From: Chryseobacterium gleum
Lineage (GTDB): Bacteria > Bacteroidota > Bacteroidia > Flavobacteriales > Schleiferiaceae
Assembly (NCBI GenBank): GCA_945883565.1
Contig: CAMCXO010000007.1
Coordinates: 1-64,000 of the forward strand
Reading direction: 5' to 3'
Length of the DNA stretch: 64,000 bases
Shown here piece after piece: positions 1 to 14,060 of the stretch. Each line of letters begins with the position of its first letter. Positions within the stretch are counted from its first letter, which is position 1. The notes under the pieces are model-generated. The model searched no databases. It saw only the letters and a program-made list of their open reading frames with translations, and was not told where the DNA came from. Both the position numbers and the translations under genes were made by a program.

Positions 1-384
1 AGCAAAGAGCGATTGAATTATAATGATCTACCCTCAAAACTTAAAACCCATAGGAACAGAACTTCTTTTTTTGATCGATTTAAAGTAGTAGCTGCCGACT
101 TGGCATATTCACAAACTGTAGTAGCGCACATTGCCAAAGACGGGCATTATTACATCCATCCAGACCTCCACCAAAATCGTTCCATTAGTGTTAGAGAAGC
201 CGCACGACTTCAGTCCTTCCCTGATGACTATTATTTTGAAGGAGAAAAGGAAGAGGCAAATAGAACGGCTGCATTTAAACAAATTGGTAATGCAGTTCCG
301 CCTTTGATGGCAGAGAAAATCGCTGAAGCAACTAAACTTTTTTTATTAAATCAAATAATGCAGAACGGAAGCAATCCAACATGA
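1..384 (+). CDS. drmMII: DNA (cytosine-5-)-methyltransferase, C-terminal part (DrmMII-like)
   Basis: The reading frame is open at the left edge, so only the last 127 residues are visible; the catalytic PCQ motif and AdoMet site lie upstream. Two C5-methyltransferase motifs are clear: motif IX ([15 protein letters not shown]) and motif X ([17 protein letters not shown]). The family transfers a methyl group from AdoMet to cytosine C5. Its stop overlaps the start of the next gene (ATGA, 381-384), so it belongs to the operon that runs through drmB. In class 2 DISARM the 5mC methyltransferase marks host DNA as self; that role is inferred from the neighbours. A methyltransferase of an unrelated restriction system is less likely given the overlap. 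Confidence 0.85.
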
Positions 385-2888
385 ATAAAGAATTAATAGA
401 GAAACTGCAATATTCTTATTTTAATAGTAGTGAATTTCATTCTCTTCCATTGACTATGAAAGATTCACTTCAACTTATATATGATTTTTTTTCAAGTAAC
501 ACGACCAACAAGCTTTGTTTGGTTTTTCCGTCAAAAGAATATTCTGCTCAATGGATATCTGTGCCATCTGTTTTGTTTCTAATTGAAAATGACTACAAGC
601 TATACAAAGAGGAAATCTTTGCATCATTCAGGCAATATAATCTTGGTGATAAATTAAAACTCAACGGGGATGCAATTGTTGAATGGACAGGCATCAAAAA
701 CAACTCTGTAGCTTTTAGAGCGGGCAAGGAGCCAAACATTGCAACTTTCACTATTGACATTACCCAGTCAATAAAACTCCAACGCACAGAACAAACAAGA
801 CAACTCTCAACTCTAAAAAGAGTTAAGCAGGCCCTTCCGGGGAAAATCATTACTCCAACTGACGAATTGTTGGAAATAAATACTTACGGTAACAAGGCGT
901 TCATGAAAAACAAAATTTGCCTTGTAAGTAAATTCAAATCTTACGATGATTCTATTGAAGATATAGCAATGAATCTTGCTGCGTTACCTGAATATTTCCA
1001 GGGCAGTAAGATTGATGAAAACGGTGCAGCAGACAAAAACAGCCCACTTCTTATTTCAAACAACCTTTCTACTCTTGCATTGTATGTTACGCTTTCTTCA
1101 AGTTCAGTTTCAAAAATTATCATTGATGGATTTTCCGCCATACAGGAAAGAGAAACAGATTTTTCAGACATTGATGTAAAAAACATTCCAACAATTCTAA
1201 TTACGGATTTATCAGAGATTGAACGTTTTGAAACCATCGGTAAGTATGGCTTTGAGTTTTTCAATTTCACAAAAGAAATTTTAAAACTTGACCATTCAGC
1301 ACACCTTTCTCCATTTCATTCTTTTGAGAAGAAGCTGAGAAAATATATTTCGTTCAATGTTGTAAAAGAGATTTGCCAAGATGCAGAACTTGAAGCAACC
1401 ACACAAAAAATTCATTCTATTGAAAAGGATGAATCAAACAATGATTTGACTTCTCTGAAAATTTCTCTCATTCAGTTGACCAATCTTGTTTCAAGAATTG
1501 CACACATACCAGTCCCAGAAGAAATTTCAGTTCTCAATTCAAAAATTAACGCCATTGAAAACTTGTTTCTCCGGTGCAGAATGTGGTTAGGTGATTCTCA
1601 CGAACCGATTGAGGAAAGCATTTCACTTTTAAAATCGGTTATTGCAAGGTTCGCAACACAGCCATCTGAAAAGTGTGCAAGGTTGAAAACCCTCATGAGT
1701 TCAAAGCATTATGATTACATCATTTGCTCTACCGAAGCAGAGGCAAAAGCATTGGATGATTCGCTTCCGGCACACATTCAGAAACCAAGAGTAATATCTG
1801 TTGCCGATGTGAACGACAAATTACTTACAAGCAAACCACAGGTAGCAATTCTTACGGGATGGGCTAAATCAAACAATATCAACAGAATTCTTTCATCATT
1901 TCTATTCTCTGAACTCACAGTTCTGTTCTATCAGTTTGAAAACAAGTATTACAACTCTTTGCAAAGAAGAAACAAACAATATAGTGAGAACATTAAGGCA
2001 ACCATAAACAGCAAAGGCGTTCGTTCAGAAACTGATTCTGCAAAGCGAAAAGGTTTCTGCGATTTATATAAAGAAGATGAAGTAAGTGAAACAACTTCTG
2101 AAAGTCCGTTTGACATTTTAGCTTTTGAACTCAAACTTGACAATGCACTGTATTCAAGATATGAAGCAAAAGGAAATTTAATTGATAGCATAAAAGCAAA
2201 ACGAATTGTATTTGAAAGTGACTTTTTTACTTATACAACTGAATCGCACAAATTTTTAGTCATTAATGAATTGATTGCAAGAAAGGGCAAGAAAGCAAAT
2301 ATTTTCAGGAGAAAAGTTGAAACATTACAAACGGGTGATGTGATTGCATTTATCAACACCGACAGAGATATTTTGGTTGAGTTGGTTGAGAAAAATACCA
2401 ACACAAAAGAACTGGCTTCTGTAAAACTGTGGACAGAGCTTTGGAAAAATCTCTTGAAAGATTACTACGCTTCAATCGGAAGTGATTTCAAAAAATTAGT
2501 AGCGGATTTGCGGAAGAATGACTGCAAGAAACATGAGGTTACCATCAGAACATGGTTGCAAGACGAAAGCCGAATTGGTCCCGATGATGATGCTGACCTA
2601 ATAAGCATAGCACTACTAACAAACTCAAATCATTTGAATGAAAATATCACAACAGTCAGAGAGGCAATCAGAAAAATGACTGGCTGGAGAATGAAAGCAT
2701 CTGACTTTATCACCGACAAAATCAAAGCAAAGATTCATGAGTTTGCAGACAATTCCATCATCAATAAAAAGATTTCAGTTGAAGGATTAGGTAGTGTATT
2801 TGTTTTGAAAGTTATAGAGATTTCGAATGCTTGGGAGAGTATTGAGGCTCGTCATGCAAACAGGTTACTTCAAAAAGAAATTAACTGA
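381..2888 (+). CDS. drmE: DISARM-associated protein DrmE (probable)
   Basis: 835 residues, close to the length I remember for DrmE, the class 2 DISARM protein of unknown biochemical activity. No Walker A or nuclease motif is visible. The segment around residues 245-300 has hydrophobic strands ending in acidic residues ([14 protein letters not shown]) that resemble a degenerate helicase-like fold. The C-terminal third contains a TGDVIAF stretch and Trp-rich helices. It overlaps the methyltransferase by 4 nt and the next gene by 1 nt (TGATG). The identification rests on length, on the position between a 5mC methyltransferase and drmA/drmB, and on general resemblance, not on a diagnostic motif. 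Codon use is A/T-rich with GCA for Ala, like the rest of this operon. Confidence 0.7.
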
Positions 2889-4627
2889 TGGCAAAACTGC
2901 TACCACCATATATTGATAAAAGCTGCAAAAGCACGGGTGAGAAAATGCTGTTTGATATTTTCAAGAATAGCCAGTTCACCAAAGATTGGATTGTGCTTCA
3001 TTCACTCAACTTATCGCAGCATACAGTTCGTTTATATGGTGAAATTGATTTTCTGATTTTGATTCCAAGCGGTGGCATTTTTGTAATGGAAGTTAAAGGC
3101 GGTGATGTAAAATGTATTGACGGGGTTTGGCACTACACAAACAAATTCAATGTAACAAACACAAGCAATTTAGGTCCATTCAACCAAGCAAGAGATGCAA
3201 TGTTCTCATTGCGTTCAGCTATTGAAAAAGAATTCGGCAAAGGACACAAGTTCACAAAAATTCTTTCCGGCTTTTTTTGTGCATTCCCACACATCAGTTT
3301 TAACAAACACAGTGTTGAATATGAACCCTGGCAGATTCTTGATAAAGATTTTATCAAAAATGGTACGGAAACGTTTTTTCAGAATCTTGTAAATCAATTC
3401 ACCAACAAACACAAAAACCAAAGGTGGTTTTCAGAAAAGGATTCATTGCCTGATAAAAACGATTTGAATTCTCTTTGCGATTTTCTGAGAGGAGATTTTG
3501 AAAGAGTGCGGACAGTAAAAGAACGGTTAACTGAGTTTGACAAGGAAGTAAAAAAATACACCGAAGAACAATACAGAATTCTTGATTCAATCGAATTGAA
3601 TGAAAGAAGTGTTACACAGGGAAGTGCAGGCACGGGAAAGACAATGATTGCAATTGAATCGGCAGTGAGAGCCGCAGCAGCAGGAAAAACTGTTTTCCTT
3701 ACTTGTTACAACCGCTTAATTGGAGAGTGGATGCAGAAACAAGTTGAAGAATGGAAAGACAAAATTACAGTTTCAAGTTTGCACAGTTTCTTATTTGAGC
3801 AGTCAAAAGGATTTGACTACGATAAAGCACAGAGTAGTAAGCAGGATTTCTACAGCAAGTATTTACCAGTTTTGCTGAAAGATATTTATCAAAAAGGAAT
3901 AAGCAAAAAGTTTGACAAGTTGATTGTTGATGAGGGTCAGGACTTAATCAGAGAAGAATATCTTAAACTGTTTGATTCGATGGTAACAGGTGGTTTACAA
4001 AACGGCAATTGGGAAATATATGGTGATTTTGAAAGGCAAGCAATCTATGCTCAGTTGACAAGAGCAGAAATGCTTGATTTGCTGAAAGTTTCAGGTCAAC
4101 ATTCAAACTTTCTGCTCAAAATAAATTGCCGGAATACTAAGCAAGTTGGAGAAGAAACCTCTCTGATTTCCGGATTTGAGAAGCCACCATTTTTGTTGGA
4201 ACATCTTGAAGGAATTCCTGTTGAATACATTTTCTACAATGATGAAGCAAATCAGAAAACCTTGCTTTCACAGCAGCTGCAAAAACTTTCATCAAAGAAT
4301 CTTCCATTGAATGAGTTGGTGATTATCTCACCAAGAAAATTTGAAAACTCATGTTCTGATTCAGTTCCAGGTTTTTCAATCAGAGAACTAAAAAACAACA
4401 GTGAAATTTCACCGACACAAAGTTTCTATGGCTTTGCAACTATTCAGTCATATAAAGGCATGGAAAGCAATTATGTTTTGATAACCGACATTGAAGATTT
4501 ATCAAGTGAAACCGCCAAGTCGATTTTGTATGTTGGAATGAGTAGAGCACGATACGGACTGTTTCTTTTCATTTCCGAATCAATGAGAAACGAATACAGG
4601 GAAATTCTTAAACGCAAACTCAATTAG
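2888..4627 (+). CDS. NERD-domain nuclease fused to SF1 (UvrD-like) helicase
   Basis: 579 residues in two parts. Residues about 15-85 are a NERD (nuclease-related) domain with an apparently complete PD-(D/E)xK set: E18, D54 (in GEIDFLI), E68 and K70 (MEVKGG). From about 225 on is a superfamily 1 helicase/ATPase: a Q-motif-like TEEQYRILD, Walker A GSAGTGKT (245-252), DEGQD motif II (348-352), and a C-terminal YVGMSRARYGLFLF motif VI. The family is expected to unwind and probably cut DNA. It starts 1 nt inside drmE and ends 1 nt before drmA, so it is translated as part of the DISARM operon. It is not one of the DISARM genes I know. I infer that it supplies a nuclease or motor function in place of, or beside, DrmC. 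Confidence 0.85.
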   Translation: MAKLLPPYIDKSCKSTGEKMLFDIFKNSQFTKDWIVLHSLNLSQHTVRLYGEIDFLILIPSGGIFVMEVKGGDVKCIDGVWHYTNKFNVTNTSNLGPFNQARDAMFSLRSAIEKEFGKGHKFTKILSGFFCAFPHISFNKHSVEYEPWQILDKDFIKNGTETFFQNLVNQFTNKHKNQRWFSEKDSLPDKNDLNSLCDFLRGDFERVRTVKERLTEFDKEVKKYTEEQYRILDSIELNERSVTQGSAGTGKTMIAIESAVRAAAAGKTVFLTCYNRLIGEWMQKQVEEWKDKITVSSLHSFLFEQSKGFDYDKAQSSKQDFYSKYLPVLLKDIYQKGISKKFDKLIVDEGQDLIREEYLKLFDSMVTGGLQNGNWEIYGDFERQAIYAQLTRAEMLDLLKVSGQHSNFLLKINCRNTKQVGEETSLISGFEKPPFLLEHLEGIPVEYIFYNDEANQKTLLSQQLQKLSSKNLPLNELVIISPRKFENSCSDSVPGFSIRELKNNSEISPTQSFYGFATIQSYKGMESNYVLITDIEDLSSETAKSILYVGMSRARYGLFLFISESMRNEYREILKRKLN

Positions 4628-4628
4628 C

Positions 4629-7600
4629 ATGAGAGCCGATATTTTAAAATTCATAAAAAGGGAATTGATAGGTCCTGACCCAATCAAACCTCACATACAG
4701 GAGAACGGAGAAGAAATTTTATTGAACGAACCACCGAGATTGCGGTATGGTGCAGGTGTTTTATTTCCAAGAGCAGCAACAATTGAAAAACTTGATTCCA
4801 CTTCAACCGAAGAAGAAAAGGTCTTGGAAAAACTTGAAGATGAAAAGAAAGTAGTTGACGACCCTGTAATAGCAGAAGACAGCAAAGCACCGGTTGATAT
4901 GGCAGAGGATTTTGAAGAAGAAATAGGACTCGCAAATTCTTTTCTCCCTTCTGCAATGGGATTCAGTTGCTTTTCAAAAATTCCAAAAGACGGATTCACA
5001 ATTAAAGTCAGTGTTGGTGTTTATGAAATCAAAGGATACAGTTATCAGAAAGAAGATGCAACCATAGTAACAAGAAAAGCATATTACAGAACTCCACTTG
5101 ATCAGGAATTTGTTTTAACCGCAAATGAAATTCCAACACAGTCGGGAAAGAATATTGACAAAATTCTTGTTGACAAAAACGGGAAGGAGATAAATCTCAA
5201 ACTGAATCTCCGTAACAGAACTCATGGAAATGATTCTGGCAAAAATATTCATCTTCTCACATTTACTTTGATAAATCAGAATACAGGAGGGGCAGAGAAT
5301 ATCAAGAATGAAGATTGTTTCTTTCAGGTTTCTTTTTCAGTAAGTGCAAACGAAAAATGTTTTTGTCCTTACAAAGCAGCAGCATCTAAAACAGACAAGG
5401 ACGATGAAAGATCAAATCTGCTTTTGTTCAGAAAGAAAAAAACTTTTGCAGTAGGTCATGGATGTTCGCCATCATGGAATGATAAAGACATTGAATTTAC
5501 TGATTCAATTACAACCGAAGCAATTCCTGCTTATGAAATAAAACCAATCGTTCCTAATGAATTGAAAAGTGTTGAACTGAAAATGTTTGACCTGTCTGAT
5601 TTGTCGGACAAGGACATTACAGCAAATCTTATCAAACTCAGTTCGGAATATGAAGGATGGATAAATGAGCAAGAGAAAATTGCGAACGCAGAATTGAAAG
5701 ATGAACTTTTAGAAACTGCATTGCGCCACATTGAAAGTTGCCGTTTGTGTTTGCAAAGAATGAAGGAAGGAGTTGACTTACTCAACAACAATGAAAAAGT
5801 TAATCGTGCTTTCAGGTTAATGAATCGCGCAATGATTTTGCAGCAAATAAACTATAGTGTAAAGACACGAAACTGGAAAATTGCAAATGGTCAGGTTGGA
5901 GAACTTGACTTGCCACAAGTTGAAGGTAGAGAGAAAGGCGTTTTTCCAAACATGCTGGATGAAAATAGTTATCCGTGCAATCCAAAAACAGGAAACTTGT
6001 TAGTCGGCTCTTGGAGACCGTTTCAACTTGCCTTTATCTTAATGAACCTGAATTCCATGTTGGATGCTAATCACGCAGACAGAGAAATGGTTGACTTGAT
6101 TTGGTTTCCGACTGGTGGAGGAAAAACAGAAGCATACTTGGGTTTGTCAGCGTTTACAATTTTCCTGAAAAGATTAAAAGACAAAAACGATTCAGGCACA
6201 ACTGTGTTGATGCGTTACACATTGCGACTGCTAACAGCACAACAATTTCAAAGAGCAGCAGCATTGATTTGTGCTTGTGATAAAATCAGAAAAGAGAACG
6301 AAGAAGAATTAGGTGCAGCAAGAATTTCTATTGGACTTTGGGTTGGAGAGTTGACACCGAACAAAAGAGATGCAGCGAGAAAAGCATTTCAGATAATGGA
6401 GCAAGGCAGAGAAGAAGAGAATCCTTTCATCGTTTTGAAATGTCCGTGGTGCGGTTCTCAAATGGGTTACCTGAAAGAAGCGAGAACAAACAAAGTGAAG
6501 GGCTACAAGAGAAGAAAGGTAGGAACGAAAGAAACAATTGTTTACCAGTGCGACAATCAGCAATGTGATTTTTCAAAACCCGATTTCAATTTGCCATTGG
6601 TTGTAATTGACGAAGATATTTATGACAATCCTCCTACTCTCTTAATCGGAACAGTTGACAAGTTTGCAATGCTTACATGGAGACCGGAAGCAAAAGCCCT
6701 TTTTGGTTTCAGAGGAAACGACAGACCATTTTCTCCACCGGAATTAATTATCCAGGACGAGTTGCATTTGATTTCGGGTCCGTTGGGTTCAATGGTTGGT
6801 TTATATGAAACAATGATTGAGGAACTCTGCACAGCAAATAACATCAAACCAAAAATTATTGCATCGTCAGCAACAATCAGCAGAGCCAAAGAACAAATCA
6901 ATTCGCTTTATGGACGAGGCACAAACAATGTCAATATTTTCCCCGCACAATGTTTAAGTGCAGGTGATTCATTCTTTGCATATGAGGACACATCAAGCGC
7001 AGGCAGAATTTACACAGGCATATTTGCATCTGCTCTACCTTCACACGCAACTGCACAGGTAAGGATTTTGTCCGCTTTACTTCAATCAGTAAAATCAATT
7101 TCGGTTGCAGATGAGATTTTGCGTGACCCTTACTGGACAGCATTGACATACTTCAATAGTATTCGTGAGTTAGGTCATGCAGCTACACTCATTCGTGCAG
7201 ACATAAGGGAATACATGAATTCAATCTGGATTCGGAAAGCAATCAAAGGTGATGAAAGACGATTTATCAATCGTGATATTGAACTCACAAGCCGTATCAA
7301 CAGCAATGACATTCCTGAATATTTAGAACAACTTTCAAAATCATGGACGGGCGATAAAACAGAATACCCGGTCGATGTTTGTCTTGCAACGAATATGATT
7401 TCAGTTGGCGTTGATATTCCACGATTAGGTTTAATGACTGTAATCGGACAACCGAAGACAACTTCTGAATACATTCAGGCAACAAGCCGTGTTGGTCGTT
7501 CAAAAAAAGGTCCCGGACTTGTCTTTACAATTTACAATTGTTCAAAGCCGAGAGACCGTTCTCACTTTGAACATTTCCAGGAATACCATTCAAAAATTTA

Positions 7601-8039
7601 TAGCAAGGTGGAACCAACAAGTGTCACTCCTTTTTCAGCACCGGCTAGAGAAAGAGGGTTGCATGCAATCTTAGTCGGACTGATTAGATTTTACTCAACA
7701 GACCAAAGTGCAAGCACACCAAGACCTTTTCCTCAAAAAGAAATTATTGAAAGAGTAACTCAAATAATTTTTGATAGAGTTCATTTGATTGATGAGGAGG
7801 AATACGAAAAGACATTAGAACTCATTGAAGAAAAACTGGACTATTGGAAAAATGAATTGCCACTTGTTTACGGTTCATTCGGAAAGCAAATAAATATTCC
7901 GTTAATGTATCCGGCAGGAACAAATCCATCAGAAGATATTAAAGCAAGAGCATGGTCAACACCAACATCAATGAGAAATGTTGATTCAACTTGTGAAGCG
8001 TATGTTATTCCGGCAGAATACTTAAACATTGACAATTAA
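4629..8039 (+). CDS. drmA: DISARM helicase DrmA
   Basis: 1136 residues. Superfamily 2 helicase signature: Walker A PTGGGKTEA near residue 495, motif II DELH near 710, and motifs V/VI (TNMISVGVDIPRLG, QATSRVGRS) near 925-955. A Cys cluster between the motor lobes (CPWCG near 604 and CDNQQC near 640) suggests a zinc site. The N-terminal 450 residues carry no motif I recognise and include an acidic, Glu/Lys-rich stretch near 55-105. DrmA is the ATP-dependent motor of DISARM and forms a complex with DrmB. It starts 2 nt after the NERD-helicase stop codon and is followed by drmB after 3 nt. The adjacent DUF1998 gene makes the assignment firm. Confidence 0.9.
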   Translation: MRADILKFIKRELIGPDPIKPHIQENGEEILLNEPPRLRYGAGVLFPRAATIEKLDSTSTEEEKVLEKLEDEKKVVDDPVIAEDSKAPVDMAEDFEEEIGLANSFLPSAMGFSCFSKIPKDGFTIKVSVGVYEIKGYSYQKEDATIVTRKAYYRTPLDQEFVLTANEIPTQSGKNIDKILVDKNGKEINLKLNLRNRTHGNDSGKNIHLLTFTLINQNTGGAENIKNEDCFFQVSFSVSANEKCFCPYKAAASKTDKDDERSNLLLFRKKKTFAVGHGCSPSWNDKDIEFTDSITTEAIPAYEIKPIVPNELKSVELKMFDLSDLSDKDITANLIKLSSEYEGWINEQEKIANAELKDELLETALRHIESCRLCLQRMKEGVDLLNNNEKVNRAFRLMNRAMILQQINYSVKTRNWKIANGQVGELDLPQVEGREKGVFPNMLDENSYPCNPKTGNLLVGSWRPFQLAFILMNLNSMLDANHADREMVDLIWFPTGGGKTEAYLGLSAFTIFLKRLKDKNDSGTTVLMRYTLRLLTAQQFQRAAALICACDKIRKENEEELGAARISIGLWVGELTPNKRDAARKAFQIMEQGREEENPFIVLKCPWCGSQMGYLKEARTNKVKGYKRRKVGTKETIVYQCDNQQCDFSKPDFNLPLVVIDEDIYDNPPTLLIGTVDKFAMLTWRPEAKALFGFRGNDRPFSPPELIIQDELHLISGPLGSMVGLYETMIEELCTANNIKPKIIASSATISRAKEQINSLYGRGTNNVNIFPAQCLSAGDSFFAYEDTSSAGRIYTGIFASALPSHATAQVRILSALLQSVKSISVADEILRDPYWTALTYFNSIRELGHAATLIRADIREYMNSIWIRKAIKGDERRFINRDIELTSRINSNDIPEYLEQLSKSWTGDKTEYPVDVCLATNMISVGVDIPRLGLMTVIGQPKTTSEYIQATSRVGRSKKGPGLVFTIYNCSKPRDRSHFEHFQEYHSKIYSKVEPTSVTPFSAPARERGLHAILVGLIRFYSTDQSASTPRPFPQKEIIERVTQIIFDRVHLIDEEEYEKTLELIEEKLDYWKNELPLVYGSFGKQINIPLMYPAGTNPSEDIKARAWSTPTSMRNVDSTCEAYVIPAEYLNIDN

Positions 8040-8042
8040 AAT

Positions 8043-9920
8043 ATGCCAGCTAAAAAACCAATAAGAAGGTCGCAGTTAATTTCTCCGTGGGGAGTTGGAC
8101 AAATGATAAATTTTCCAAAGGATGAATCATTGATGGTTGTCGGGCTTGATATGTGGGAAGAAAAATTCAGAACGATTTCTGAGTTAGATGAATTCAAAGT
8201 AACCGAAGAACGGTTAGCAAAACGATTAGGAGTAAAAGAATTCAGATTGCCGCCTGATTTCAGAGACCCAGGTCCGGGCGTTACAAATCCGTCACTGAAA
8301 ATTCCATTCGTAAGATTTCCACGGTGGCATTATTGCACCAGGTGCGGACATATGGAGAAAGTTTCTATTTACGATTCACAGAAACCAACTTGCTCAGGAA
8401 TTTCTTTTGGCTCAGGAAGGTCCTGTAACGAAATTGCAGAAAGGAAAAGACAGCGATTGATTCCGGTTCGCTTTATCACTATTTGTGAAAAGGGTCATAT
8501 TGAGGATTTTCCTTTTATGCAATGGGTGCATGACGGAGCTAATCCAGAAGGACAACATAATTTGAGATTGAGAGCAGGAAGAAGTTCAGGTGCATTATCT
8601 GGTATTGAAATTACTTGTAGTTGTGGGGCACACAAAACAATGGCAGGTGCTTTCAACGAAAAATCACTTACAAAAATTGGAGTTGCCTGTTCTGGTGGTA
8701 GACCGTGGTTAGGACAAGAAGTTGACAGAGGCAATGCGATTCATTGTGGAGATGACTTACGAGTAGTTCAAAAAGGTGCATCAAATGTGTACTTCTCACA
8801 AGTTCGCAGTTCAATCTATCTGCCTCAATGGGAAAAGTCGGTTGACAGGAGATTGGTTGAAGTGTTGGAAAAAAATTGGGGATTCCTTACAACAGGAATG
8901 GAAAACGAAAATTTTCAACGAATGCGATTTGAGTTAGTTGCAGAAAGAAATTTTGCAGAGGAAAAAAAGGAATTTTATACAGATAAATTATTAGAAGCGG
9001 CATCGAAAAGAATTAAAGGTGCTGACAATTCGAACACTGATGATTCTGAAGAAAAATACCGCAAGATGGAATATGATGCGATACTTTCAGAAGCAGGAGG
9101 TGAAAATCAAGACTTCTTTGTAACAAAAAATCAAGCGTATACTTATGATGATTTAGAAACAGGAGGAGCAATCTGCAATGGATTTACAAGCGTAGGTTTG
9201 TTGCACAAGTTGAGAGAGACAAGGGCATTCGTTGGGTTTTCAAGATGGCTTCCTGATGACGGAAAATCTTTGACTGAAAAAAAGAATTTTATAAAACTTG
9301 GGCAGCGTATTGAATGGCTTCCAGCAGTGGTCGTGAGAGGTGAAGGGGTTTTCTTTGAGTTCAATGAGAAGCGTTTGAAACAGTGGGCTGCAAAAGATGA
9401 AGTGATTAAGAGAGCCAAATTCCTATCCGACAATTACAACAGACCACGGGAAGCAAAAGGACAGAAACGAAGAGTCATAAAACCGGAGTTTGTTTTGATT
9501 CACACTTTTTCTCATTTGGTAATAAACCAGTTTAGCTACGAATGCGGTTACGGTAGTTCAGCATTGCGAGAAAGAATTTATTGCAACCTTGAATTTCCAA
9601 ATGAAACCATGAACGGAGTATTAATTTACACTGCATCAGGAGATTCGGAAGGTTCGTTAGGCGGTCTTGTAAGACAAGGCAAGCAAGGCAATCTTGAAAC
9701 GATAGTTTACAACGCAATTGAAAATGCAAGGTGGTGTTCAAGTGACCCAATCTGCATTGACAGTCACGGACAAGGTCCGAACTCATGCAATCTTGCAGCT
9801 TGTCATAACTGTTCGCTTTTACCTGAAACTTGTTGTGAAGAATCAAACATGCTGCTTGATAGAGCAATGTTGATTGGAGAGTTGGACAATCCTTCACTTG
9901 GTTATTTCAATTACAAATAA
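8043..9920 (+). CDS. drmB: DISARM DUF1998 protein DrmB
   Basis: 625 residues. The N-terminus has the ISPWGVGQMINFP motif typical of DrmB. Zinc-ligand pairs follow: CTRCGHM near residue 98, CEKGHIEDFPF near 150, and a C-terminal Cys cluster (CNLAACHNCSLLPETCCEE, about 580-600) that marks DUF1998. In DISARM, DrmB binds DrmA and, as I recall structural work, the pair recognises DNA ends or overhangs. It is the last gene of the operon seen here. The expected next gene, drmC (phospholipase-D fold nuclease), is absent: no PLD HxK motif protein is encoded in the bases that follow. Codon use is A/T-rich as in the rest of the operon. Confidence 0.9.
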   Translation: MPAKKPIRRSQLISPWGVGQMINFPKDESLMVVGLDMWEEKFRTISELDEFKVTEERLAKRLGVKEFRLPPDFRDPGPGVTNPSLKIPFVRFPRWHYCTRCGHMEKVSIYDSQKPTCSGISFGSGRSCNEIAERKRQRLIPVRFITICEKGHIEDFPFMQWVHDGANPEGQHNLRLRAGRSSGALSGIEITCSCGAHKTMAGAFNEKSLTKIGVACSGGRPWLGQEVDRGNAIHCGDDLRVVQKGASNVYFSQVRSSIYLPQWEKSVDRRLVEVLEKNWGFLTTGMENENFQRMRFELVAERNFAEEKKEFYTDKLLEAASKRIKGADNSNTDDSEEKYRKMEYDAILSEAGGENQDFFVTKNQAYTYDDLETGGAICNGFTSVGLLHKLRETRAFVGFSRWLPDDGKSLTEKKNFIKLGQRIEWLPAVVVRGEGVFFEFNEKRLKQWAAKDEVIKRAKFLSDNYNRPREAKGQKRRVIKPEFVLIHTFSHLVINQFSYECGYGSSALRERIYCNLEFPNETMNGVLIYTASGDSEGSLGGLVRQGKQGNLETIVYNAIENARWCSSDPICIDSHGQGPNSCNLAACHNCSLLPETCCEESNMLLDRAMLIGELDNPSLGYFNYK

Positions 9921-12112: not shown

Positions 12113-13432
12113 ATGCTCATAGAATTCAATGTTCAAAATTTTGGTTCCATAAAAGAAAAGCAGACGCTCTCGTTTGAAGCGGATAAATCAACCCATTTAG
12201 AAAACCATTTTATAATTAACACCACCGGAAAACTAAGGCTCCTCAAGCTCGCCCTTATTTACGGTGCTAACGCTTCTGGCAAGTCTACCATTTTAAAAGC
12301 CCTTGAATTCCTAAGAAAACTTGTTCTAGAACCAACCGAAAAGAAAACCGATAATCTTGAGCTTAACCCTTTCCTCTTCGACTCCGAATCAGCAAAAAAG
12401 AATTCAATTTTATCCATTCACTTCATCCAAAATGATATTAGATACTATTATGAAGTGGAATTAAATAGAAAAGCCATTTTCAGAGAGGAACTACTGTTTT
12501 TTAATCCAAATAAAGCCACTGTATTTAAACGAACATCCAACGTACACAAACAATTCACTGAGATCACGTTTGGAAGCAAAATAAAAAAAGACAAAATCAC
12601 TGAACAGAATTTAGAAGCGAACACGCTCTGGAACAATACAGTACTCGGCGGATTTCTAAAAACCAACGTCGACGTCAAAGAACTAAAAGAAGCTGTAGAT
12701 TGGTTTAAAAACTATCTGCGCCCATTAATTTTTACAAATACCCAATTAGAAGGCTTTGTTACATCAAAAATCGAATCTGGCGAAGTGTCTAAGTCAGATG
12801 TTGTAAACATACTTAAGCAGGCAGACTTTAATATTTCTGACCTAGTTATTCAAGAAGAAAAAAAGGGAATTCCCGATGGGTTAATGAATTTTTTGAAGAA
12901 ACAACTTAAGGATTCACCAAAAGGGATAGAAAAAATAGAAGAAATAGAAGAAAAAGGGGGAATAGCTTCTGCTAATCTTGAATTTGAACACACTGTTAAT
13001 CAAGTTAAATATTCCTTACCCATAGAAATGGAGTCTCAGGGAACTAGAAGGTTCTATGGTTTCGCAGGCCTTTTAAGTATGTTAATTAAAAATTCAGTCG
13101 CTTTTCCTATTGATGAATTAGAAGCTTCTTTGCACCCCGAATTGTTCACCCACTTTTTACTTTCTTTCTTAATCAACTCCAAAAAATCCCAAATTATTGC
13201 AACCACACACAACAGAGAAATTTTAACCAATAAAGACATTTTTAGAAATGATGCCATTTGGTTTACAGACAAATCCGAGAAGTCTGCTACCCAATTGTAC
13301 TCATTATCCGATTTTGATAGTTCCGTTGTTAGAGACAGCAGTAACATTTTTAACGCTTATAAAACAGGTAAATTAGGAGGCTTGCCTAATTTGGGTGATT
13401 ATTATATTGATATAAGCCATGAGGAAAACTAA
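12113..13432 (+). CDS. rloA: RloA/AbiLi-type AAA ATPase
   Basis: 439 residues. An ABC/SMC-like ATPase of the AAA_15/AAA_21 type: N-terminal FNVQNFGSIKEKQTLSF, Walker A GANASGKST near residue 51, Walker B with D-loop IDELEASLHPEL near 333-344, and the switch histidine in ATTHNREIL near 362. The middle contains a charged helical insert. Paired with RloB it resembles the AbiL abortive-infection system and the rlo genes found in restriction loci. The family is thought to sense phage and license a toxic nuclease partner. The stop overlaps the rloB start by 14 nt. It lies 2.2 kb beyond a DISARM operon, which supports a defence role. Confidence 0.82.
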   Translation: MLIEFNVQNFGSIKEKQTLSFEADKSTHLENHFIINTTGKLRLLKLALIYGANASGKSTILKALEFLRKLVLEPTEKKTDNLELNPFLFDSESAKKNSILSIHFIQNDIRYYYEVELNRKAIFREELLFFNPNKATVFKRTSNVHKQFTEITFGSKIKKDKITEQNLEANTLWNNTVLGGFLKTNVDVKELKEAVDWFKNYLRPLIFTNTQLEGFVTSKIESGEVSKSDVVNILKQADFNISDLVIQEEKKGIPDGLMNFLKKQLKDSPKGIEKIEEIEEKGGIASANLEFEHTVNQVKYSLPIEMESQGTRRFYGFAGLLSMLIKNSVAFPIDELEASLHPELFTHFLLSFLINSKKSQIIATTHNREILTNKDIFRNDAIWFTDKSEKSATQLYSLSDFDSSVVRDSSNIFNAYKTGKLGGLPNLGDYYIDISHEEN

Positions 13433-14060
13433 AGCAATTCCTTTAAAAACCAAAACAACATTTGCAGTTGTGGTTGATGGCGATTGCGAAGTGTGGTATT
13501 TGCAAATGCTAAAAAGGAATGAACGGTCCGTTTTTGTAAATATAGAACCTAAAATTCCTCAAAGGAAAAGTCTATCTGAACAATATAAAAAGGCAATTGA
13601 ACTATCTTTAGAATACTCTAAGGTTTTTTGGATAGTTGATTTTGATGTAATATCTCTTGAAACCAAAAATGCTCTGGGTAGCAAAAAAACGGCAACCCAA
13701 TTATTCTTACAGTACAGGAAAACCATTTCAGAAAAACACTATAACATTGTGGTCATTGTAAATAATCCTTGTCTCGAATTTTGGCTTCTGTTACATTATG
13801 AAGCGACTTCGAAATACTTTAATAATTGTGAAGAAGCAGAAAAGCAACTAAAAAAACACCTTAAAGATTATGAGAAATCCCTAAAATACTACACAAAACA
13901 GGGCAACGACATTTACCCACGGCTAAAACCACATTTGTCATCCGCTTTAAAAAATGCAAAAACCCTGAAATTATTCGATATCGAAAACCCCAACAAAGCA
14001 CTTTCTGAAATGCATTTGTTTTTTGAAGCAGACGAGTTTGAACAGCTCTTTAAAAACTAA
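13419..14060 (+). CDS. rloB: RloB/AbiLii-type TOPRIM-like protein
   Basis: 213 residues of the RloB family. Signature parts are VVDGDCEVWYLQMLKRNE near residue 13, WIVDFDVI near 68 (DxD), and NPCLEFWLLLHYE near 112. Together these fit a TOPRIM-like metal site with acidic residues; the first acidic position appears as Asp in VDGDCE where many relatives have Glu. In the AbiL model RloB is the nuclease-like effector controlled by the ATPase. It overlaps rloA by 14 nt and so is translationally coupled. No terminator is obvious after it. Confidence 0.82.
   Translation: MRKTKAIPLKTKTTFAVVVDGDCEVWYLQMLKRNERSVFVNIEPKIPQRKSLSEQYKKAIELSLEYSKVFWIVDFDVISLETKNALGSKKTATQLFLQYRKTISEKHYNIVVIVNNPCLEFWLLLHYEATSKYFNNCEEAEKQLKKHLKDYEKSLKYYTKQGNDIYPRLKPHLSSALKNAKTLKLFDIENPNKALSEMHLFFEADEFEQLFKN

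Follow-up and report, generated by a model that had tools for sequence, protein, structure and literature searches.

A DISARM variant with a NERD-helicase gene directly before drmA and without drmC in a Chryseobacterium gleum assembly

DISARM is an anti-phage defence that is described in two classes. Class 1 is composed of drmD, drmMI, drmA, drmB and drmC, and class 2 is composed of drmMII, drmE, drmA, drmB and drmC. The DrmAB complex binds unmodified DNA with 5' overhangs, and methylation lowers the DrmAB ATPase activity (PMC9142583). drmC is dispensable and often missing in DISARM, and the recruitment of another nuclease by the system has been postulated (PMC9142583). The PADLOC definition of type II DISARM demands drmC (PMC9252829). 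TALON, a rare system found largely in Chloroflexota, combines an ARMADA-like helicase with genes for TPR-CSD and TBP (PMC12458937). Here, we describe a DISARM-type operon in the first 9,920 nucleotides of the window, a stretch of 64,000 nucleotides that opens contig CAMCXO010000007.1 (C7) of a Chryseobacterium gleum assembly (GCA_945883565.1). In this operon, a gene encoding a NERD nuclease domain fused to a superfamily 1 (SF1) helicase lies directly before drmA, and drmC is absent. The locus is DISARM-type by its core and, as judged from its gene content, is a new DISARM variant that is neither class 1 nor PADLOC class 2.

The operon consists of five open reading frames on one strand, with junctions of -4, -1, +1 and +3 nt. 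A preliminary description of five near-contiguous, same-strand genes was correct throughout, except at the first junction, where the genes overlap by 4 nt. The first reading frame (1..384, +) is the 3' part of a DrmMII-type cytosine-5 DNA methyltransferase gene, encoding the C-terminal 127 aa (PDLC02649, 1.1e-55). It is followed by a drmE-family gene (381..2888, +; 835 aa) whose product scores 566 bits with the broad NCBI family model DrmE_fam NF038316 (cut-off 80) and matches DrmE_C PF24957. The NERD-SF1 helicase gene (2888..4627, +; 579 aa) matches NERD PF08378 (2e-9) and PDLC03813 RTasNERD-Hel (1.6e-36). The next gene, drmA (4629..8039, +; 1136 aa), encodes a superfamily 2 (SF2) helicase that clears the NCBI cut-off of NF038325 (974 vs 950 bits), and its best solved relative is 7s9v, the DrmA of Serratia DISARM (4.4e-147). 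The last gene, drmB (8043..9920, +; 625 aa), encodes a DUF1998/MZB-domain protein (PF09369 MZB) that clears the cut-off of NF038324 (482 vs 240 bits). Both proteins of the DISARM core are present, and DrmB is encoded separately by a gene that adjoins drmA and starts 3 nt past it.

Like class 2 DISARM, the window has separate drmA and drmB genes in a single operon, here together with the C-terminal part of a putative 5-methylcytosine (5mC) methyltransferase and a protein of the broad DrmE family. Unlike class 2, it has the NERD-helicase directly before drmA and no drmC, and its DrmE belongs to DrmE_fam and falls short of the canonical DrmE equivalog NF038323. At E 1e-3 the equivalog is not among the matches of the window, and two relatives from the same clade score 27-35 bits against its 250. 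The strict PADLOC class 2 definition does not take in the locus, which has no drmC. With class 1 the operon shares the DrmA-DrmB core, but it is without the SNF2-type DrmD, the Eco57I/MmeI-like DrmMI and drmC; class 1 loci are recognised elsewhere in the same data (e.g., L171), and the window operon is not among them. TALON likewise pairs a NERD-type nuclease with a YprA-family helicase, which in TALON is fused to DUF1998. In the window, however, drmA and drmB are separate DISARM-type genes, NERD is fused to an SF1 helicase, and neither TPR-CSD nor TBP is among the operon's Pfam matches, which sets the locus apart from TALON. The PADLOC RTasNERD-Hel and C3a187 NERD+UvrD models and Nhi-like proteins also join NERD to an SF1 helicase within a single polypeptide of 520-600 aa. 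The names of these models refer to reverse-transcriptase or other contexts, whereas the window gene is a co-diversifying partner in a drmA operon. As a test for Dpd, the DpdJ helicase model NF041067 gives 41 bits against a cut-off of 800. No report of a NERD-helicase in DISARM was found in the literature searched, which did not cover the founding DISARM paper or the supplements of PMC12458937.

The association of the NERD-helicase with drmA extends well beyond the window. DrmA loci were collected as the 80 nearest matches in 84,980 species genomes, 15 matches from viral contigs, and all matches in even samples of four phyla, selected by DrmA alone. The genes of each locus were called and then labelled with profiles built from the collected data. 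A tree was built from 150 DrmA sequences, and it places the window inside a 72-row clade with a Shimodaira-Hasegawa support of 100. The NERD-helicase adjoins drmA in 51 of the 62 unique clade loci that are readable at the 5' end, and drmC is found in 0 of 60 unique readable loci. Before the removal of duplicates, 55 clade loci carried the NERD gene, 54 of them immediately adjacent to drmA, and the two genes mostly overlap or are separated by a few bases. Outside the clade (69 loci), drmC is found in 21 loci, and the NERD-helicase is upstream in 7 and downstream in 7. In the genome collection, at least 14 phyla contribute NERD-upstream loci. The same gene order is found on a mobilizable plasmid of Rhodococcus opacus (pROB02), where the RefSeq names are 'NERD domain-containing protein', 'helicase-related protein' and 'DUF1998 domain-containing protein'. 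No relative turned up within the same genus and family (36 genomes) apart from one partial match (9.6e-6), and a query of phage records with the NERD protein found nothing.

The NERD-helicase also diversifies together with DrmA. Across 48 loci, the NERD and DrmA distances are correlated (Mantel r 0.91), as are those of DrmA and DrmB (0.95), and the NERD tree mirrors the DrmA subgroups. The proposal of a variant DISARM architecture is supported by this co-diversification and by the tree, in which the NERD-containing loci do form a clade without drmC, a point that the preliminary description had raised for checking. The NERD gene had also been regarded as an insertion between drmE and drmA of a class 2 operon. 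Its position is as described, but it is rather an old shared component of the branch than an insertion.

In the window protein, the NERD nuclease domain is located at about residues 16-116. Residues E18, D54, E68 and K70 (nuclease), K251 (Walker A), D348 and E349 (Walker B), and R553 are kept wherever present in 71 family members. The nuclease and Walker A/B residues are invariant in 69-71 of the 71, and the gaps come from two N-terminally truncated sequences only. At the sequence level, the PD-(D/E)XK residues and the SF1 ATPase motifs of the window NERD-helicase are intact, and the dN/dS ratio against two relatives is 0.135 and 0.137. The AlphaFold (AF2) model of the protein has a predicted local distance difference test (pLDDT) score of 87 and a fold like those of SLFN11, Upf1, UvrD, RecD2 and Dna2. 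The predicted likeness to UvrD, Upf1, RecD2 and Dna2 fits an enzyme that would track along exposed single strands and cut them. Dna2, AddAB and other helicase-nucleases also couple a PD-(D/E)XK nuclease to an SF1 helicase; the likeness is limited to fold and probable mechanism, and membership in these families is not claimed.

Full-length DrmE (about 830-1130 aa) gives way to two genes, E1 and E2, in roughly half of the NERD loci. E1 (305-371 aa) aligns to DrmE 19-295 with an hhalign probability of 81, and E2 (490-612 aa) aligns to DrmE 330-860 with a probability of 99.8. The AF2 model of DrmE (pLDDT 84) has its best Foldseek matches among the RIG-I-like (LGP2/MDA5), Chd1 and XPB SF2 helicases (E 1.9e-5, probability 1.00). 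No Walker A motif is found in 77 homologous DrmE sequences. Given the SF2-like fold and the lack of this motif, DrmE may tentatively be read as an ATPase-dead pseudo-helicase. In other DISARM branches, an active SF2 helicase is found at the place of DrmE, namely the SNF2 DrmD in class 1 and ResIII-type proteins elsewhere.

From the identity and order of the genes, the conservation of the NERD-drmA pair, the catalytic residues, the co-diversification and the absence of drmC from the branch, roles may be inferred for the methyltransferase, DrmAB, DrmE and the NERD-helicase. The methyltransferase would mark host DNA. In line with the solved Serratia complex, DrmAB would load on phage DNA that is unmodified and has 5' single-stranded ends, and methylation would hold it back. 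DrmE may be a helicase-shaped subunit without ATPase activity whose role is to hold or regulate DNA. The SF1 motor of the NERD-helicase would track along the exposed strand, and the PD-(D/E)XK NERD domain would cut that strand, in a division of labour like that of Dna2, AddAB or Nhi. The operon-encoded NERD-helicase would then fill the role proposed for drmC or a borrowed host nuclease in other DISARM systems. Thus read, loci with the order (vsr)-drmMII-drmE-NERD/helicase-drmA-drmB and without drmC probably form a distinct, widespread branch of DISARM in which the NERD-helicase is a dedicated effector that degrades phage DNA. A further-reaching proposal, to which we give slightly less than an even chance, is that the NERD-helicase is the ancestral, obligate effector of a major third DISARM branch missed by the standard definitions, and that DrmE is an ATPase-dead SF2 pseudo-helicase that stands where other branches have an active second helicase.

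Several points weigh against these readings. The branch is known from sequences and predicted models, not from activity, and to our knowledge NERD domains have rarely been assayed for nuclease activity. The matches of DrmE to SF2 folds have a template modelling (TM) score of only about 0.24, and a profile comparison of DrmE with DrmD shows no similarity; therefore, only a fold resemblance is claimed. Among all loci, none has both NERD and drmC, 61 have NERD only, 21 have drmC only and 43 have neither. This exclusion gives a Fisher p of 1.5e-7 when the tree is ignored and a median p of 1 for independent pairs on the tree, and it cannot be separated from phylogeny. A repeated replacement of drmC by NERD was rejected, since the tree-aware contrasts show a clade-level difference. 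Finally, 11 of the 62 readable clade loci are without a full-length NERD gene beside drmA (in L070 a fragment is left), and since drmC too is lacking in several of the 11, the nuclease may be auxiliary.

These 11 loci make an accessory or regulatory role of the NERD-helicase the chief rival explanation. The protein would then not be the killing nuclease but would load, remodel or repair DNA, or clear stalled DrmAB from host replication forks, and DrmAB alone would block phage replication. Such a role agrees with the dispensability of drmC and with the proposal that a DrmAB block is sufficient (PMC9142583), and several of the 11 loci have no visible substitute nuclease. However, the E/D/E-x-K nuclease residues are fully conserved in all members, which argues for selected catalysis, and we regard a purely accessory role as rather unlikely.

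The NERD-helicase could also be a stand-alone companion, a defence gene in its own right (Nhi-like or DRT-associated) that frequently rides in the DISARM operon, in an island with the AbiL/RloB pair. The best PADLOC model, RTasNERD-Hel, is named for reverse-transcriptase defence systems, and defence genes do adjoin the operon. Weaker relatives occur outside DISARM (L232 and L233, and plasmid matches in Thermomicrobium and Selenomonas). In contrast, the gene has a fixed place directly 5' of drmA, with overlapping genes, and its distances mirror those of DrmA over deep divergence. Close relatives in the sample from the same phylum are confined to DISARM loci: among 376 genomes, strong matches to the NERD profile (over 450 bits) lie in DISARM loci in 7 of 7 genomes, and weaker matches (G042, G069, G109 and G137) lie outside them. 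A companion of this kind is improbable, and the related concern that the gene is a sporadic passenger does not hold, given its place beside drmA in most clade loci and its co-diversification with DrmA.

The absence of drmC after drmB, noted in the preliminary description, extends to the genome. The DrmC model, which detects drmC in other loci, has no match anywhere in the assembly, which is 99.44% complete. Base 1 of the window is base 1 of contig C7 and lies inside the methyltransferase gene, so the region 5' of this gene is unreadable on the contig. Complete operons are available from an Ignavibacteria relative (L055, DrmA 69%) and a Bacteroidia relative (L056, DrmA 88%). Both have the order (vsr)-methyltransferase-drmE-NERD-drmA-drmB with no drmC on either side, so that drmC is not hidden just upstream. 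The genomes of 27 loci were searched with DrmC; a strong match (1.7e-28) came solely from the L128 genome, whose operon includes drmC, and a weaker match (1.2e-11) in the IMCC26256 genome lies beside a second, class 1 locus. A hidden phospholipase D (PLD) nuclease was considered, and across 63 NERD-upstream loci the three genes that follow drmB were scanned for the motif HxKxxxxD. Of the three matches, two are in methyltransferases and the third is in an unannotated 238-aa protein, and they were taken as chance. Taken alone, the absence of drmC is no surprise, as DISARM can do without it and loci often lack it (PMC9142583). An artefact, in which drmC would lie immediately past the contig end and the choice of loci nearest the window would create the association, is most improbable: the window does open at a contig end and the 80 genome-collection loci are the nearest DrmA matches, but the whole assembly and the complete relatives are without drmC, and the even phylum samples, chosen by DrmA only, have NERD upstream in 19 of 60 loci, drmC in 17 and both in none. 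In these samples, the NERD-helicase is about as common as drmC.

The methyltransferase fragment aligns to positions 311-417 of the 422 in the PDLC02649 profile, and the contig begins too late to include the catalytic part. The homologue in L056 is complete (412 aa), as is that in L055. The missing N-terminus is on none of the other contigs of the assembly; a candidate on another contig turned out to be a different methyltransferase. Between the window and L056, its closest relative, the methyltransferases share 70% identity (dS about 1.9), DrmE 88% (dS 0.27), NERD 96% (dS 0.15), and DrmA and DrmB 86-89% (dS about 0.6). The divergence is mosaic, and the methyltransferase appears to have been swapped by recombination. 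A very-short-patch-repair (Vsr) gene is often found beside the methyltransferase (L055, L061, L065, L075, L095, L098, L101 and others), where it presumably repairs 5mC deamination.

Other arrangements are found among the remaining loci. In a mostly actinobacterial DrmA branch (L113, L116, L120-L123, L127, L129 and L132), the gene that immediately precedes drmA encodes a GajB/UvrD-type helicase without NERD, and ahead of it lies the gene of a TmtA/ResIII-like protein of roughly 1600 aa. Some members of this branch (L131, L139, L186 and L200) have a NERD-helicase after drmB instead. DrmE-bearing DISARM loci with neither NERD nor drmC are L084, L091, L097, L106, L110, L060, L085, L092, L103, L244 and L245, and L106 has a DUF2357/PD-(D/E)XK gene downstream. 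No canonical class 2 locus was found in 191 Bacillaceae; two weak DrmE matches there belong to drmE-drmA-drmB-methyltransferase operons with neither NERD nor drmC. The NERD-helicases outside DISARM (L232:2216-3832 and L233:7221-8834) have as neighbours a DndC-like protein (by eye), an HSP90-like-looking ATPase and a roughly 1080-aa protein without Pfam matches, and this neighbourhood is possibly a separate defence system.

The G+C content is 36-40% across the operon and about 45% further on, and this difference indicates horizontal acquisition. An AbiL-like pair (12113-14060, +) is located 2.2 kb downstream of the operon and is composed of an AAA ATPase (AbiLi, 6.7e-76) and an RloB-like protein (PF13707, 2.7e-25; AbiLii, 3.5e-17). 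The DISARM locus is part of a low-G+C defence island.

Because the strict class 2 definition requires drmC and the RefSeq labels are generic, the NERD-bearing branch of DISARM is probably under-counted. DrmC, the only nuclease listed for DISARM, can be dispensed with and is frequently lacking. A conserved nuclease-helicase encoded within the operon makes the question of how DISARM destroys phage DNA directly testable.

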